This document shows, in pieces, positions 1,098 through 26,902 of a DNA stretch of 64,000 bases. The stretch is taken from assembly GCA_004369045.1 (NCBI GenBank), contig ML213508.1, positions 921,395-985,394 of the forward strand, written 5' to 3'. The translations under genes and the position numbers were made by a program. This DNA comes from Heliocybe sulcata. Its lineage: Eukaryota > Basidiomycota > Agaricomycetes > Gloeophyllales > Gloeophyllaceae. Under the pieces are notes generated by a model that was given only the letters and a program-made list of their open reading frames with translations, was not told the DNA's origin and did not search any database. Every line of letters begins with the position of its first letter. The stretch's first letter is position 1.

Positions 1098-3378
1098 TCA
1101 CTCGATATCCTCCTCAATCAGGTCCCGCAGCCTGTCCACCCGAGGTGAGAACTTGACGTGGTACGGCAATGGATGGGCGTTTGCCGTGTCGGTAAACGCG
1201 AGCGTGTCTATAGGATTAGACGGGTCTCCCGAAAGACCGAACGCCCACAAGATCAGAGCGGTATTTATAAACACAGATCTGCGCAGGACATGATATGAGA
1301 ACTCCGACCACATTATATCTAAGATGGAGTACACTCACCGAACAGCTACGTGTTGCCCGGGGCAGACACTGTCAAAATTGACACAGCCGTTAGAGTTAGA
1401 TAAAAGTCTCCCTTTAACCCACTTACCGTCGCCCGAAGCCAAAGGCATGATAGTTCTTCATGTCCTCCTTGACCTTACCATCCTCGCGGATCCACCGCTG
1501 GGGTTTGAAGGATTCTGGATCTGGATAAACCGCTGGATCCCTCGCAATTGCCCTGAGGTCACGGTACGGGTCAAGCAGAGAAGGTGAGAGCACCTCAATT
1601 GATGAAGGCATCTATTCTTACCAGTGGTTGCCAATGATCGCAGCACCTTCGGGGATACAGTACTCCTTCTGCCTCATAAACATGTAAGACCCACCAAGAA
1701 GCAAAGACAGCAGAGTCCGTACCCAGAATATATCCTGTGTTGCCTTGTGCATGAACCCTAATGGCAAGGTGCCCTTTAGTGCCATGTGAGCAAAGTAATG
1801 ATATAAAGAGCATTGACCCCCGGGCGTGATAGGCCTCCATCTGAAAGTTTCCAAAACAAAGGCCATCGTATATGGCAAGACATCCATATCCCCAAAGTTC
1901 GGCACTGTGGACCAGCCATATAAATACAAACATGCCGTAAAATGCTATAAATGAACTTACACCGATCTCGGCCCACAACACTGTCGAGCTCCTCCTGCAC
2001 CTTCTTTTGGGCATCCGAATGCGTGGCCGCGGCCATGATGGCAACACTAATGGCAGAGGCGCTCTGCCGCAAGCCGAGTGACGGACTGTCAGATCCACTG
2101 AAAATTCAAGAAAGCGGTGAGACTAACCGTATCAGATCCTGCACCGAACATCGAGCCAGCAAGGTATGCCAGTTCGTTATCTCTCAGATCATACTCGGCT
2201 TGCCGCTCAAGGAGATATTTAGCAAACGAGGGACGGGCCTGTCCAGACTCCTATATCCGGGAAACGAAAGTTGCAGATACGCTCGATCCTAGCTGAACCT
2301 GGCAAATGTTTGTACACTCACCAATTGCTTCCTGACAGTCTCGACCTGGCTTGTATATAATGCCAGCTCTTCCTTATGCCACTCTTTCAGAGTCCTGAAG
2401 TACCCAGGCACATACCTGAAGCAACCGCTGTAAGACTCAGTTGGCTTGTACCAAAGTCCCTTACCGCAAGAGTGGGAACACGTCTACCATCCACTTCCCA
2501 GGTTGGATCGTCGCACCTACTCGCATCGTAAATTTGTTGATACTCCGAACTTCCGGATCTGAGTACGACGTCGGCGTAGTTTTGCCATATGCCATGGACA
2601 TGATCACCGAGGCCGCATATCTGATCTGTAATCAATTAACCATGAGCGGAACGGGGAGGTCATTGCAGACCTTTTAGCGTGCGCCTGATGGTGAGACGGG
2701 TCCTGAAGAATATCTAGGAGCATATTCTTCGCGTTGGCCATCTGAATCGGCTCGTATGTGTCCACCACTTTCAATTGCAGTTGGGAATGAAGTGCCCTAC
2801 ATGAAGAATCGCGTTTTGAGCGACAACATTGCCTAACGGGCCTCTATGGCTGACCTTCTCAGTTTCTTTAGGCGCTCCCCAACTCCGGTCAGCAGTATGC
2901 GCATGCCGCCAGACAGAGTCTCCCCTGCAGCAATGGACCGTGGCCGGTCGGCCGTATTGGCACCCTCCTTCTCCAGGATGTCCACCGCGGCCTATATGCA
3001 ATTCACTACCCCTTTTGTTCAATGAACACCTGCAGTCGTACCTGGTATCGCCCGACGATGATAAGAATCTTCCTTCCTTGTCTAAGGGTGAATACAGGCC
3101 CGTACTCCTTCGTCCACTCATGAAATTGACGATGCGCGCTGTGGTTGTTATAAGTACTTGATCTGTATGACCACAGGTGATGCACGCAAGATGACTTACT
3201 ATGGTCTGGGCGTTGTATTGCCGTAGAGCCAATGGCCCGGCGGGCCAGGAGGGAGTAGTCCATGTTCACTGGTTCGTTGAATGTGCTTCACCTTCGTGTA
3301 CAGCGCATAACAAACCAGAGCTGCACATATCGCCAACGCAATCAAGTCTAAGCGCGTTATCTCATGGAGCACAAACAT
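1098..3378 (-). CDS. cytochrome P450 monooxygenase (14 exons, 506 aa)
   Basis: Membrane-anchored haem-thiolate monooxygenase, probably at the ER and working with NADPH-P450 reductase. Exons (complement): 1098-1278, 1339-1368, 1427-1552, 1622-1668, 1723-1757, 1818-1904, 1961-2063, 2128-2250, 2322-2415, 2465-2620, 2671-2796, 2855-2991, 3042-3138, 3200-3378; they sum to 1521 nt in one frame. Landmarks in order: an N-terminal hydrophobic anchor, the LLPPGPPG hinge, I-helix MFGAGSDTSASAIS, K-helix ETFRWRP (ExxR), the PERF-equivalent FKPQRW, and the haem loop FGFGRRVCPGQHVA with the Cys ligand. The ATG at 3378 is chosen because the open frame further upstream has only a TTG. A TATA box lies about 50 nt upstream. 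The style is that of basidiomycete P450s often annotated as O-methylsterigmatocystin oxidoreductase-like. The substrate is unknown. The gene looks intact and stands alone, about 20 kb from the second P450. Confidence 0.93.
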
Positions 3379-4196
3379 GCTGAAGACTTGCAAGACGGTA
3401 TCAGGAAGAGATCATTGCCGATGTCTGAAGTATATATAGTCCTGGGACCACAATCAGCAGCTGGTCACCGGATGGAGGTTATCGGCTTGCATTCGCCAGA
3501 TTTGAGTGTGACTTATCCGAGTTTAGTAACATAACAAACATACGCTGCAGACTGCAGGAGCAAATCATACCCTATTTCTGTATGAGTCTGGAGGCGGACG
3601 GATTGCGCACCGCAACTCCGAGTGTGTTTCGGAAAGGAAGGGGGTGAGCTCTTCTGCGCCCTGGCGCATCGGAGAGCAGTTTAGAATGACTGTCGAAAGG
3701 AATCCAGTCGACCATACAAGAGCAGTAAATCTGACGTGCCATTCAGCGTATCCAGCCGGCACAATATCCAGAATGATGGGGCTGACCCAGATCCTAGCCC
3801 ATATTTCTTCAACCCATAGTAATGCAGTATGCGGCGCAGCACAGTAAGTTTATGACTGATTGAAGTCAAGACGGTGGATTGATACTCCGCCGCTCAGCGG
3901 ACGGAAGTTCTTGCCGTTGCAACTTGAAGTGAACGTGAGTGCAGGCATGACAAGGAGTTCCTTCCGTGCGAGGGCAGACCCGTGTTGAGGTTCAGGAAAG
4001 CTGAAGCTGATCTATCTGAAGAGCTCTTTCATGTGAGTGTGTAGGGCAAGCGTTGCGGAAACAATAGATATGAAATCGTCTTCGTATCACAAAGGGCCTG
4101 AACCTAGCTGGGATAGCTATAGATCGGCTTGAGCAATGAAGACTATGATACATTTGACAGAACGGAGAGTAATACAAATTGGATGACCGCGCACAT
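3379..4196. other. promoter region and intergenic space left of HIG1 gene
   Basis: Holds the upstream region of the P450 (TATA box at 3431-3439) and, near 4190, the 3' flank of the HIG1 gene. No open frame in it shows a recognisable motif. Confidence 0.4.
3431..3439 (-). promoter_or_regulatory. TATA box of the P450 gene
   Basis: TATATATA on the minus strand, about 53-61 nt upstream of the chosen P450 ATG (3378). Its position supports that start over the in-frame TTG at 3393. Confidence 0.5.
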
Positions 4197-5426: not shown

Positions 5427-7725
5427 CTAACCCGTCCCATCCGTAGTCCCCGATGTGCCTTCCCTCGTCCCAGTCGCACTACTAAAGTTCCGTGATCTCG
5501 CAGTAGACCTGGTCGTAGCACTAGCGGCTCCAATCGCCGCCTCCCAATGACTCTGGCCACGATCCCACTTGTTCTGCTTGTGGACCACCTCCGGATGTAG
5601 CATATTCTTCGCGGTGATGGAGACGCCTTGCGAACGCAGCAAAGTCTTCAGATTGTTGACATCCGCGGAAGCCCAGCTCGTGGGTTCCTCGTCGTCAGGC
5701 ATCGCGTTCACTATGTACTGGCTCGCTGTGAGGACATTCGCAGCGTCTCGAGGTGGGAATACGGGACACGTTCCGTTGGATAGTTGTGCAGCATCTCTGT
5801 CAAAGATAGGACACGTTATATAAAAATCGATAGGAGTATGCATAGATCACTGGCTTACACAGGATTCAGATAGCTATGTAATAGCGCTTCCGAGCCTTGC
5901 AGTCTTTTCGAAGGGCTGCGAGAAAGGAGCTTTGGAGTGATAGATGAGCTTAACAACGTTAAACTGGATCTGAGAGAATCCTCACCCTTCGGATGAAGTC
6001 CTTCAACAGTCCAGGGGAGCCAGCGAGCTCTAGCCTGTCCTCGAAATCACGGGGAAGCCCACGGCGAGCCGCCTTCTCTATCGCTCCCCAGTCGCCAGAG
6101 TAGAGCGTCTAAGCGAATTATCAGTCCTCGCGCAAGCAACTTAAAAACCAATCTACCCACAGTCTTGGTCTTTAGCTTGAACAAGCACACCCCAAGCGAC
6201 CACCAATCAATCGCCTGATCATACCTCGCACCCCTCCGGAGCAGCTCTGGGGCAGCAAATTCCGGCGTACAGATCAAGCTCTTGTCGGACGAGGAGAAAT
6301 GCTTTCCGGCTACAATCAACCTGGACGCGCCAAAGTCGCCGATAACGCAGTTTCCTCGATGGTTGATGAAGATGTTGCCTGGCTTGAGGTCATGGTGGAT
6401 CACGCCGTTTTGATGCAGCCAGTGAAGGCCGTGTGTCTGGAGAGCAAAGGGTCTAGAGTTAATGCCAGGATATAGATGATTCCGGTTCATTAATGACTGA
6501 CAAGGTGGGCTGCGACTCGGACGAGATGTTCGTCATTCAAAGCGCCGGCGTATTGGTGAAGATCTCCCAGCGGGCACCATTCCTATCCAGATACATCAGT
6601 CAGACACGTCAAGTACAACTACTGCGATAATCCACCTACCACAGCCATATGTAGATACCCAAACCTCGAAGCCCAGAAGAAATCACTTCCGTCTGGGTTC
6701 GCAGCAGGCTTCAGAATATACGGACTAAGCCGCCTCTCACCCTCAAGCCTCCGAATCCGCTTCAATATCTTGACTTCATTGATATACAGCGGCACATGTC
6801 TCCGCTTGCTGAGCCGCAGCAGATCGACCTTCCATGTCTCGTAATCCGGAAAGTCCTCGGGATCGACACGGACGGATTTGATAACAGCGTGTCTGCCTGA
6901 AGAGTTGTTTTGCGCGAGGTGGACCATGGTCTTTTCAGGGGTGTCCTTGATGACGGCCCTGGGATCCTCACACATGACTCGACGCAGCAGAGAGAAGTCT
7001 CTGATCTCGAGAGGGCGTACGAGTGCCCAGCGGTATTCCTGGCGGACGTCGATTGCAGTGATCGTCGCTGTCGAAATAGGCCTTTTCGAGTCGGGATAGG
7101 TGGAGTCACGCCATGGCTGAGCGTTCTCAGGTAGAGAAGGGCGCGGTGCGAGAAAATTGAGAGCGCGCAAAAGTGAGTTCTGTCTCCTCGGAGGGGGACG
7201 CGGCCCAGGGCGACCATTGGATCCCGATCCGTGTGCGTTTTCACGGTAAGGAGAAGCAGGCGCTTCGCCCTCTGGTAAGGGAGGCAGTGCCTTCCTCTCC
7301 CGGATGTAAACAGGAGGCACCCCATGGAACTGCGCGAGGAAGCTCCGCCTCATCGAGTTTCTCCGCATGTTCCCATTTTGCTTTTGATTGGATGGTCCGG
7401 GAGAAGCGAGCGAAGGAGACCGCGGGTCCTGCCACGTAGTCGTCCGTGTGTTATGGTCGATGTAGTAAGGTCTACCCTCGGGCGTCCGCTGCTCTTCCCA
7501 GCCATCATCCAGAAGGCGTGAAGCCGAAGTTGGGGTACGAAAATTTTCCCGGTAGTACTGGATGTAGTCGCCCTCAGTAATATCAATGACATTGGTATCA
7601 TCAAGAGACACGTCGAGGTCCTGTCCGTCATGATGGCTTCTAGTCGGGTATTCGTCCGTAGGAGGAGAAGTGGCACGTCCTTTGCCTTTGTCCGGCCTCT
7701 TGCTGAGTAGCCGGCGAAGACTCAT
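5427..7725 (-). CDS. WW-domain serine/threonine protein kinase (668 aa)
   Basis: Exons complement(5427-5796, 5859-5929, 5986-6108, 6161-6436, 6502-6582, 6640-7725), 2007 nt in frame. The N-terminal 130 residues hold one WW domain ([20 protein letters not shown], then RTTTWQDP), with both signature Trp and the closing Pro. A basic, proline-rich linker follows. The kinase domain begins near residue 240: the Lys strand is HAVIKSV, helix C has NEVKILKRI, the catalytic loop is IHHDLKPGN (HRD replaced by HHD), then GDFGASRL and a [11 protein letters not shown] activation-loop end. Subdomain XI reads [10 protein letters not shown]. The gly-rich loop is not recognisable. The AGC-like layout suggests a cytosolic signalling kinase that would recruit Pro-rich partners through the WW domain. 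The family is not one I can name. The ATG at 7725 is the first in a long open exon. Confidence 0.88.
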
Positions 7726-10286: not shown

Positions 10287-10972
10287 CTCCCATGAGGACC
10301 CTGGATAATACTAATAGAGGTCTAATCCGAGTCCCGGTCAAAGTGGACCTCGCCAGCGTCCATGTCGGGGTCGCGTCCCGGTCAAAACGTGACACAGCCA
10401 CGGCAGGTCGGATCCTCGCGTCCCGGTCAAAGTGGCCGTCCGCCGCGAGGTTGGATCCGATCCCGGTCAAAAATTAGAAGTCCGCCCGCCTCTTCAAGCC
10501 ACACAGGCATATGCATACTCCAGAACGCATTTCTCCCGTGAGCAATATCAATGCAGATGGCATTCTCATTAGCTCCAGCAGCTGACATTGAGGAGAGCTA
10601 CTTTACGAATGACATGGGTTTTTGATCGGGGAAAAGGCTATGACTACGATGTACACCACTAGCTGTAGACTTTTCCGCCATTTTGCTGGATATTATAGCA
10701 GATGTCACAATTCCTCTAGTTGACAAGGGTCAGAATTACATGCTTAGCCATACAGTTGCGCTTTTGATTTTTCCAAAATTGTTCTATAATTTTCGCAAAT
10801 TTGGAGGTCTGATCAGGATATCCCGGTCAAATTGGCCCTGTGGCCGAGGGTCTGTGTGCGATCCCGGTCAAAATAACCCCAAAAGGAGACTCCGGGTCCC
10901 GGTCAAAAATGTCCCGGATGGCCAACTTCCGGATCAGACCTCCATTGGTATTATCCAGGGTCCTCTCCCATG
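10287..10972. mobile_element. non-autonomous hAT-like element (MITE) with 8-bp target duplication
   Basis: The element occupies 10295-10964 (670 bp) and is flanked by the direct repeat CTCCCATG at 10287-10294 and 10965-10972. Its ends are inverted repeats of about 36 bp starting AGGACCCTGGATAATAC; left and right differ at only a few positions. Just inside each end is a subterminal array of TCCCGGTCAAA: 10332, 10376, 10421 and 10461 on the left; 10821, 10862 and 10897 on the right. The middle is AT-rich and carries no open frame longer than a few dozen codons. An 8-bp duplication with short TIRs and subterminal repeats is the hAT pattern, but the superfamily is inferred, since there is no transposase. 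It lies in the shared upstream region of the DUF1774 gene and ISD11. Confidence 0.8.
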
Positions 10973-21986: not shown

Positions 21987-22111
21987 CTACAGCGAGGGCA
22001 TAGGAAGAATCCACGTCTGTCTCACTTCGTACCTGTCCGTACCGAGGTACCTCTTCGATCTGACACTGAACTCCAACATACCAATAGCCCAATTCTCCAT
22101 CCCTCGCACGT

Positions 22112-23406
22112 ATCCCTTGACGGGCCTAGGTATTTCTGCGAAGCACCGCGAAGCGCTGCGAAGCCTTGCGAACGGCTCTCTGAGAACTTGAACTAGTCCT
22201 TGCTGAACTGCAACTGCAACTTGGCTTCCCTCATCATTCGTCGACATATATGTATGAGATCTCTGCTGATGATGCACAATTGTATATGCCGCATTCATGG
22301 TATCTACGGGCTACCGGCCGGACCAGACCTACTGTGGTGCACATAGTCCCCATTACACGACACCCAGACATTCGGCTCTTCATGAAGAGATCTTCACTTC
22401 TCATACAGCGCGTTGAACCGGTGCTCTCTGATACGGAGAAAATACTAAGGCATAGATATCCTCGCAAAATTCAGAAGCTGCATCCACATAGTGGTCCTGG
22501 CTGACCGACTCGGTGGCTCGGTGACGAAGTACAAGTTTTATCACGCCTAAAACCGTCGAATATAGTTTCTCACATGCTCGTGAGGAGTGCGTATCTGGAA
22601 AGCCTGTGGCCACAAGAGCTGGGTTGAATAGCTGGCCTGCTTGCCGCAATACTATAGTAAGCTCACTCACCGTTATACTCCTTCTATGACATTAATCCGG
22701 GCCTAGTAGGTGCAGTATGCCACTCAGAACACTTCCTAAGCACTCCTCAAGTCATCTGTCGCCTTTCTTGTGCCATTCGCAGGTCGTTCGCAGGTGTCGC
22801 CGGTTGTTCGCAGGTGTTTCGCAGTTGTTTCGCAGGTGTTTCGTAAGGCAAGTGATCGAGTCCGATCGACTCATCGGAACGTAGCGATCACATCGGCAGG
22901 GCGTAATCTCGTGAGTCATATACATCGTCCAGCCTGCATCGCTTTCACGACAACTCAAAGGACAGTGTTGCACAGCGCAACCTCGCGCCCTCTTCCTTGT
23001 TGCAAATAGGTCACTGCATGTATACGAGCGCATGGTGGGCGAGCCGTAACCTGTCCTTCATTTATTCGTTATATCTATACATGCCGTAGAGCAGTGCTAG
23101 ACTACTGTACTCCCCGGTGCCGCTGACGTTAAGGCGCTGGGATACCGTAAGTGCGGCTCGCCTACGCGCCTACTCAGCACTCAGTGCTTTTCACTATGTT
23201 TGGCGATCCGAGCTTTAAGCTTTGCTTGCTGAGAACAGCTGACTGCATATCCTGAACCCCTGGTCGACATACAAACTAGCGACAGACCACCCCCAGAAGC
23301 TTCTATAACATTGTGCTCGCAAGAAACACTGTGTTGCAGGTGTTTCGCAGATTGCACAGCCACGTTTCGCAGCGCTTCGCAGAAATCTTGTGACCCATCC
23401 CTTGAC
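22112..23406. mobile_element. non-autonomous Mutator-like (MULE) element with 10-bp target duplication
   Basis: The element occupies 22122-23396 (1,275 bp) between two perfect copies of ATCCCTTGAC (22112-22121 and 23397-23406). Its ends are imperfect inverted repeats: left GGGCCTAGGTATTTCTGCG; right, on the minus strand, GGGTCACAAGATTTCTGCG. Inside both ends the repeat continues with iterations of GCGAAGC / GCTGCGAA. No open frame longer than about 90 codons is present, so it is non-autonomous. A 9-11 bp duplication with GGG-starting TIRs is the Mutator pattern; the superfamily is inferred. It interrupts the terpene synthase relic in the stretch encoding the C-terminal helix. Confidence 0.75.
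22785..22853. repeat. degenerate tandem repeat of TTCGCAGGTG inside the MULE
   Basis: Six or so iterations of TTCGCAGGTG/TTTCGCAGTTG lie back to back. The same core recurs at both transposon ends (TTTCGCAG... and CTGCGAA...), so the array probably arose by expansion of the terminal-repeat motif. Confidence 0.6.
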
Positions 23407-23840
23407 TACTCTGTCTACCTCGGGACCCCAAGACGGTAGACTGCCCTTGTCCCGCGAGAAATCATTGACGAGCTGCTCGTAGTGCACCCCTATGTGGTCG
23501 AATGCCTCCTGGAGGTCAAAGTTCTTGCTCTACATCAGGACGCTGACGATGTTCATGGCATGGATACCTCGCTCAGCCTCCATCCTGTACGAACCAAGGT
23601 CCTGAAGACGATGAATTATAGCACACGATACCAAATAACGGCGCTGCAGCAGACTTGCATTTGCCCATGTTCAAGAAGTGAGGGTCCCGGAAGACCTCGT
23701 CTGGCAGGTCTTCTCCCATCGCATATTCTAACAATGCAAAACAGGTGAAGACGGCGCTGCCGCGCCTTCGCAGAGGCACAGATGCCCGCCGGCTTTAGGC
23801 TGTACTCCCTTATGCCGTGGCTCTCCATTTCAGGGGCACA

Positions 23841-24916: not shown

Positions 24917-26902
24917 ATGAGGGCTACTCGCTCAACCATGTCTACTTCTGACCTTGGATGTGCTAAAGGCATTCCCCAATCTTCAAAGACGAGCTTGGCT
25001 CAAGCCAAGGCCTTTTCGTGGCGTTGGCTTGCGGCTTCACTTTGCTGTGGCTGTTTGTTGGCTCTGCTAGGGGACCGATACAGATGGTCTAAGCTACTTT
25101 CACGGTCGCATGAACGGCCTCTACAACGACTTCTGTGCAATCACCCGTTTCCGATACCGACCGAACTCTCTGTGGCAGACCCATCCGTATTAGCAGTTCT
25201 CGAGCGACAGTTGCAAGGCCGAGCGTCAGACGAGCGCATTGACAGTCTGTCTGTAGCGATCGTCACTTCGTCTGGCTCTCTTTTCGAATGGAATCATGGT
25301 GTCGTGAAGGCGAACGAAACGAGTCCAGGCCAACAGGGGAAGACGGATCGCAATACTATATATCGTCTCATCTCTCTCTCGAAGCTCATCACGACAGTGC
25401 AGACGTGGATCCTGAGCGACCGCGGTTTATTGTCCTGGTAAGCTTCACTCTGGACACTGTATGTGTTGACTCGTGGCTTACTCCACGCATGGACCTTAGG
25501 ACCGACGAAGTATCAAAATACATCCACGAATTGGACAATGATGACAATCGGCCCATGACTATCCAAGAAGTCGCTTCCCACCTGGCTGGAATACCATCCA
25601 ACATGCCTCCAGGCCCAATGCCTGGATGGCCGTATAGCCTGGAGGGTGCAGGAGAGCCTCCCGACAACGGGCTCCCATTCCCAACTCGGGAATCGTTACT
25701 CCAGGCAATAAACAGTCATTCACTTACGGTCCCACCTGGCTCCTACCCAGTCTATTCCAACACTGGTTTTTCGATACTTGGCATGGTCAATGTCGCTGCC
25801 GACGGTGGCTCAGAGAACCACGATGCGCTCGTCCAGCGCGATATCTTCGGTCCTCTAGGTATGAGCAGTTCCGGCTACCATATATCGCAGCTGGGAAAAA
25901 GCAAGGTAGCGATACCTTCCAATGCACCGCACGAGGCAGTAAGTTGTTCGATCGCATCGCTCGGCTTGAACAGCTTATTCAATGACCGCGTCTTTAGGAT
26001 TGGGACTTCCTAGACGCGATGAACCCTTCCGGTGGCTGTTTTAGCACCCTCGCCGACCTCATCAAACTCATGCAAGGTCTACTATCCCAAGACCCAAATC
26101 ATCGTCTACTGAGCGGCCATTCGATGCGCTCGTGGATGCGTCCTCTATATCCGTGGTATGACGATGTGACTGAACAGGGAATCCTGTGGGAGATACGCAA
26201 GTACCGCAATACATGGGGTCAGACTCAGCGGCTCTACGAGAAATGTTCGCGTCCTTCTTACTCGCCAGCGATCATCGCACTGACTACAGTACGGTACTCT
26301 AGACGGCCAATCCGAAGGATACCACACCGCATTGTCAATCAATCCCTCTCTTAACTACGGTGTCATCGTGCTCTCGACAGGATCCTACTTCGACACGCTC
26401 AATCTGACCATGGAGGTTATCCAAACAGTGCAGCCCTCTTTTGATCTTTTCGTTCAAGCGACCATGCGGCACCTATACGAGGGACGCTGGCTATCTACAG
26501 ACCCCGATGGCAAAGGCAGTGAAATCGTGCTCAGTATCGCTGGCGGGTCTATGTGGGCTGAGAAGGTAGTCCTGAATGGCTCAGATATCCTGAGGCTCGT
26601 TCAGCGAAAGAATAAGACGGAACGTGTTCCGGTCTGGTCCACAGGAAGGCCAGAAGAATTCAGGTAAAACTTCCAGTATGCTGGCGCCGTCTATGTACGA
26701 TGCTCACGACTATCATACCAGATTCGCGTTCGGGTTGCCGTCCGAGAACGATCAGTCTGGTCATGGATGTTTGCTATACTCGTTTGGTATGGATATAGGC
26801 TATGCCAAGGGTGCACCCATTAACCAGATGACTTTCTCTGGTGATGATGCTGATAGAACACTCTTTGTGCCTTCAGTGGGCGATAAATTACGAAGAGCCT
26901 AG
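24917..26902 (+). CDS. membrane-anchored serine beta-lactamase-family protein (582 aa)
   Basis: Exons 24917-25437, 25500-25938, 25998-26244, 26303-26663 and 26722-26902 sum to 1749 nt. An N-terminal hydrophobic segment (WLAASLCCGCLLALL) at about residue 35 suggests a signal anchor. The catalytic fold shows SxxK (ISLSKLI), YxN (VYSNTGFSILG), PSGGCFSTLADL and SEGYHTALSINP, the positions expected for class C beta-lactamase/PBP-like hydrolases. The C-terminal domain ends with FGMDIGYAKGAPI, shared by fungal homologues as I know them. Fungal members act as esterases, transesterases (LovD type) or unknown hydrolases; no substrate can be assigned. Its position between the terpene synthase relic and the methyltransferases makes a role in the same pathway plausible but unproven. 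Confidence 0.88.

Follow-up and report, generated by a model that had tools for sequence, protein, structure and literature searches.

A probable non-autonomous Mutator-type transposon lodged in a terpene synthase relic of Heliocybe sulcata

In a 64-kb window of the Heliocybe sulcata genome (the whole stretch of DNA that we analysed, 64,000 nucleotides), positions 22122–23396 very probably represent a non-autonomous Mutator-type (MULE) DNA transposon that landed in a terpene synthase relic, with its transposase supplied in trans, most likely by a coding relative on contig C16. A sequence-only reading had proposed a Mutator-like insertion at this place, and the results below support its account in substance.

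Results

A 1,275-bp element with inverted ends and a target duplication

The 10-mer ATCCCTTGAC occurs at 22112–22121 and again at 23397–23406, identical at 10/10 positions, and the segment between the repeats (22122–23396) measures 1,275 bp. Both the exact 10-bp duplication and the 1,275-bp segment with GGG-starting inverted ends had been claimed from the letters alone, and both held up. Across the 64-kb window, only one of 62,705 position pairs at a spacing of 1,285 carried an identical 10-mer, and it was the ATCCCTTGAC pair. The inverted ends, GGGCCTAGGTATTTCTGCGAAGC on the left and GGGTCACAAGATTTCTGCGAAGC on the right (inverted), are imperfect, matching at 17 of 23 bp; they agree in GGG, in the 13-mer ATTTCTGCGAAGC and in one of the seven bases between. 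The longest stop-to-stop frame lying wholly within the element spans 106 aa. Its features are these:

22112..22121, no strand: target site duplication, left copy ATCCCTTGAC, identical to 23397–23406
22122..23396, plus strand: probable non-autonomous Mutator-like element, 1,275 bp; five genome copies share the paired ends
22122..22144, plus strand: left terminal inverted repeat, 23 bp, with the left-specific heptamer CCTAGGT; 5 genome places
22136..22172, plus strand: left sub-terminal array, period 10, CTGCGAAGC-like (Tandem Repeats Finder); candidate transposase binding sites
22776..22843, plus strand: internal array, period 11, TTCGCAGGTG-like (Tandem Repeats Finder)
23344..23381, plus strand: right sub-terminal TTCGCA sites, at equal distances from the end in C16
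23374..23396, minus strand: right terminal inverted repeat, 23 bp, with the right-specific heptamer TCACAAG; 5 genome places
23397..23406, no strand: target site duplication, right copy ATCCCTTGAC, identical to 22112–22121

Elsewhere in the window, at 10287–10972, we observed a second small DNA transposon of 670 bp (10295–10964) with inverted ends AGGACCCTGGATAATAC, flanked by a perfect 8-bp direct repeat CTCCCATG; it is hAT-like by duplication length.

Five copies in the genome share the paired ends

The sequence-only reading had suggested looking for further copies with these ends and duplications of 9–11 bp. We searched the genome (G000; 31.6 Mb in 51 contigs, with the element under study on contig C6) with each 23-bp end, allowing up to 3 mismatches and taking the reversed pattern as control. 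Over the whole genome, the left end was found at 5 places (mismatches 0, 0, 0, 1 and 1) and the right end at 5, all exact, with 0 places for either control. These ten ends are arranged as five facing pairs, one each on C6, C7, C2, C14 and C16, and no end is unpaired. These longer patterns were used because the bare 13-mer is not specific: with 1 mismatch, ATTTCTGCGAAGC occurs at 58 places in the genome vs 31 for its reversed control. Of the 10 places with exact ATTTCTGCGAAGC, nine belong to the ends of the five copies; the tenth, on C5, has no 23-bp end.

For each copy, we took the element as bounded by GGG...CCC, tried duplication lengths from 7 to 11 and kept the best flank match. The duplications are perfect in three of the five copies (10/10 in C6, 9/9 in C7 and 10/10 in C14), match at 9/10 in C16 and at 7/9 in C2, where the duplication looks decayed. 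In 1,264 aligned bases, 4 substitutions separate the C7 copy from the C6 copy (11 gap columns, 1,260 columns matching), which supports the earlier claim that the insertion is fairly recent. Between C2 and C6 there are 59 substitutions in 1,255 aligned bases (28 gap columns, 1,196 matching). The C14 copy consists of four pieces with 88–90% identity to the C6 copy, spread over 24 kb that is swollen by other insertions.

The C14 composite contains a Transposase_21 (tnp2) protein (L011, 6417–8135; Pfam, 5.5e-9). At about 1480–4090 of the same locus, an insert of ~980 bp is nested, bounded by AAGGGGCGGACA/TGTCCGCCCCTT and showing by eye the 9-bp repeat GTGACGAAG; together with the adjoining element sequence it is present as a tandem pair, perhaps owing to the assembly.

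A coding relative carries the same end architecture

The C16 relative is 7,264 bp long and carries both 23-bp ends. It matches the C6 element, in order, over element positions 1–67 (85%), 664–912 (74%) and 1172–1275 (89%), as a diverged deletion derivative of a coding relative would. The internal period-11 array overlaps the start of the common block at 664–912. TGCGAA stands at element positions 16, 36 and 46 in C6 and C16 alike, and each end has three sites (TGCGAA/TTCGCA) at identical end distances in the two copies, though C16 is nearly six kilobases longer. Counting TGCGAA or TTCGCA, we found 11 in the C6 element vs 0.8 expected (simulation maximum 5) and 15 in C16 vs 3.2 expected (maximum 11), so that the observed number was reached in 0 of 2,000 first-order simulations for either. 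At the left end, the heptamer reads CCTAGGT in four copies and, in C16, CCTAGAT; at the right end, all five copies have TCACAAG. The sub-terminal sites may serve as transposase binding sites.

On the same strand as the C6-like blocks, C16 has a predicted gene of seven exons and six GT-AG introns (52–83 bp), with 1,613 codons and no stop; the introns were picked from the sequence alone and are predictions. One exon frame contains a PHD finger (PF00628, 2.5e-6, above the Pfam cut-off). By eye, the product also shows D (LSDAAHKFW), D (QVMDYG), C..H (GCHEHF) and E (TTNAEEAMH), in what we take to be the order of MULE transposases, the second D motif (QVMDYG) falling just after a predicted splice junction. 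Likewise by eye, NSCWLDTSLQ and HFTACFY...YDGMKHGG resemble the Cys and His boxes of ubiquitin-specific proteases. Three of the exon frames (533, 184 and 261 aa) have matches in C16 only when searched against the genome. A degenerate direct repeat ~180 bp in length, seen by eye and unreported by Tandem Repeats Finder, precedes the predicted gene on its upstream side (L014, about 7400–7720).

Profile and structure searches backed neither the DD-C..H-E nor the protease reading in Pfam or PDB. The Pfam MULE model had no match to C16, whether in pieces (E up to 1) or in the joined predicted exons (E up to 10), and a comparison of C16 with two PF10551-positive proteins from this genome was also negative. 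By sequence, the best PDB hits were KREPB8 for the protease-like region (0.012 and 0.018) and a tautomerase for the first exon (1.3), neither of them convincing, and a structure predicted for the first exon on its own was too poor for use (mean pLDDT 33.6). PADLOC gave no match for two protease-like frames. In the search for relatives of the C16 transposase, 7 stretches in viral contigs and 16 in bacterial and archaeal genome contigs fitted the pattern, with 0 confirmed in either set. Regarding the autonomous MULE transposase with these ends that the sequence-only reading had proposed to look for, an apparently unbroken predicted gene with both ends and, by eye, the DD-C..H-E series exists on C16; the MULE profile is the part that did not follow. 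This gene is the likely source of transposase for the C6 element.

The ends, duplications and motifs point to the Mutator superfamily

Mutator-like elements include non-autonomous members, the superfamily is known for long ends, and the host of Mutyl, with which we compare the element below, is Yarrowia. The ends here are short (23 bp) and imperfect, which counts against membership, as does the failure of the Pfam MULE model to detect the coding relative. The paired terminal inverted repeats, and the common ends of coding C16 and non-coding C6, are as in MULEs, and our duplications of 9–10 bp lie within the 8–11 bp that PMC6446971 gives for Mutator-like elements, along with inverted ends of 14–500 bp. 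No Pfam model recognises the transposase part of C16, so the case for membership is built on the duplication length, the ends and the motifs. On this structural basis it appears well supported: the Mutator-like assignment of the sequence-only reading survives as the best fit to the 9–10 bp duplications, the G-starting inverted ends and the C16 motifs seen by eye, and finds no echo in the MULE profile.

Described groups resemble the family in part. According to the same source, Mutyl (Hop group) has 9–10 bp duplications, 22-bp ends, two ORFs and a C2H2 finger and occurs in ascomycete fungi (PMC6446971); duplications and end size are near those here, whereas C16 has one predicted fused protein and a PHD finger. 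Rehavkus is described there with a PHD finger, 9-bp duplications and a C-terminal minisatellite, in arthropod and annelid hosts (PMC6446971). PMC12730594 gives 8-bp duplications for Zisupton and usually 8 bp for hAT. The KDZ elements of fungi (Zisupton, Dileera) are, like this one, fungal DNA transposons with inverted ends (PMC12730594), but with 9–10 bp duplications here we rejected both KDZ and hAT membership on those figures. Among the matches listed in the open-licence literature, we recognised no printed precedent for the family.

It is unlikely that the element only resembles Mutator and instead comes from a different superfamily whose duplications are long (Rehavkus-like, Merlin-like or an undescribed lineage). 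Such a reading would accommodate a partner protein that the Pfam MULE model does not recognise, and the PHD finger of C16 and the 9-bp duplication of C7 (9/9) recall the features listed for Rehavkus in PMC6446971. However, the two perfect 10-bp duplications exceed the 9 bp given there, and Tandem Repeats Finder reported no minisatellite at the 3′ end of the C16 gene, where Rehavkus would have one, its two arrays lying near the left end and upstream of the gene. The order of the C16 motifs, judged by eye, fits a MULE.

A six-frame genome search with PF10551 gave five matches, 0 of them on C16. They lie on C21, C38, C22 and C25 (L047–L051) and belong to other families, on contigs without these ends. 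One might suppose that a PF10551-positive MULE of this kind, carrying the domain for which C16 gave no match, mobilised the element in place of C16. We consider this very unlikely: neither 23-bp end occurs on those four contigs within 3 mismatches, and both are present on C16.

The target is a terpene synthase relic with a visible empty site

Two parts of the host gene flank the element:

21999..22121, minus strand: terpene synthase relic frame left of the insert, toward the C-terminus; tblastx to L054 (C12), 49% of 41 aa, E 2.8e-10
23398..23791, minus strand: terpene synthase C-terminal region, two pieces right of the insert; PF19086; tblastx to L054, 52% of 42 aa and 54% of 74 aa, E 4e-31

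Terpene_syn_C_2 (PF19086) has matches on the minus strand to the right of the insert (2.3e-7 and 2.9e-5). Four right-flank frames were compared with this model: one passes the curated cut-off, one falls below it at 0.0036 and two have no match; neither left-flank frame has a Pfam match. We searched the flanks separately by tblastx against 21 paralogue loci. The right flank matches L054 up to position 2248 and the left flank from 2240 on, an overlap of nine bases, or three codons, within the duplicated ten. Together, the flanks therefore cover L054 unbroken at this site, overlapping only in the three duplication codons, and the empty site is visible in this paralogue. One terpene synthase on both sides of the insert, as the sequence-only reading had it, is thus borne out.

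The other defects that this reading attributed to the host gene are also present. An in-frame TAG stands at 23530–23532. Between 23796 and 26500, tblastx returned no more than 4 short rows, at ~22 bits and in mixed frames, with no convincing match to the N-terminal half; the gene is for these reasons a relic. The relic retains 49–54% amino-acid identity to L054 vs a divergence of 0.3% between the C6 and C7 copies, so the insertion is likely the younger event, later than the decay of its host gene.

Genome-wide, PF19086 gave 23 rows, about 14 terpene synthase loci by position including the relic, with neighbours on C12, C15, C21 and C35. Together with the short introns, these synthases fit a fungal genome. 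Beside the relic, at 25243–26013 on the plus strand of the window, lies an open frame for a Beta-lactamase-family serine hydrolase (PF00144, 1.1e-16).

The five paired-end copies and the paralogue that is contiguous across the site agree with the transposition history proposed from the sequence. That a chance direct repeat flanks a segment that never moved has a vanishingly small probability and is already refuted by the genome copies, with the single identical pair at the 1,285 spacing and the contiguity of L054 standing against it as well; nothing was seen in its favour.

Discussion

The following course of events would account for the locus. A transposase acting in trans, with the 7.26-kb C16 relative as its most likely source, would recognise the 23-bp imperfect inverted repeats and then the array of TGCGAA sites; the element would be mobilised and joined to a staggered cut of 9–10 bp in the 3′ part of the terpene synthase relic gene, and gap repair would yield the target duplication. 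In this scheme we infer the supply of transposase by C16, the binding to the arrays and the strand-transfer chemistry.

The insertion itself is ordinary and sits in a dead gene, and we regard the finding as sound but modest. The fused C16 protein, with its transposase, protease-like and PHD parts, is what might draw a specialist's attention. In a more speculative reading, which we hold to be doubtful, the family may represent an undescribed fungal Mutator-type lineage. Its fused one-copy protein would combine a zinc-finger-like region, a DDE transposase, a ubiquitin-protease-like cysteine protease, a PHD finger and a further C-terminal region; the left-only CCTAGGT and right-only TCACAAG, kept through divergence, would let the two ends be told apart, and, at the insertion target, the PHD finger and protease might act on the host's chromatin. 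The family is small and clearly delimited, and with one coding copy that seems unbroken and two non-coding copies that are nearly identical, it may lend itself to tests of how the ends are recognised.
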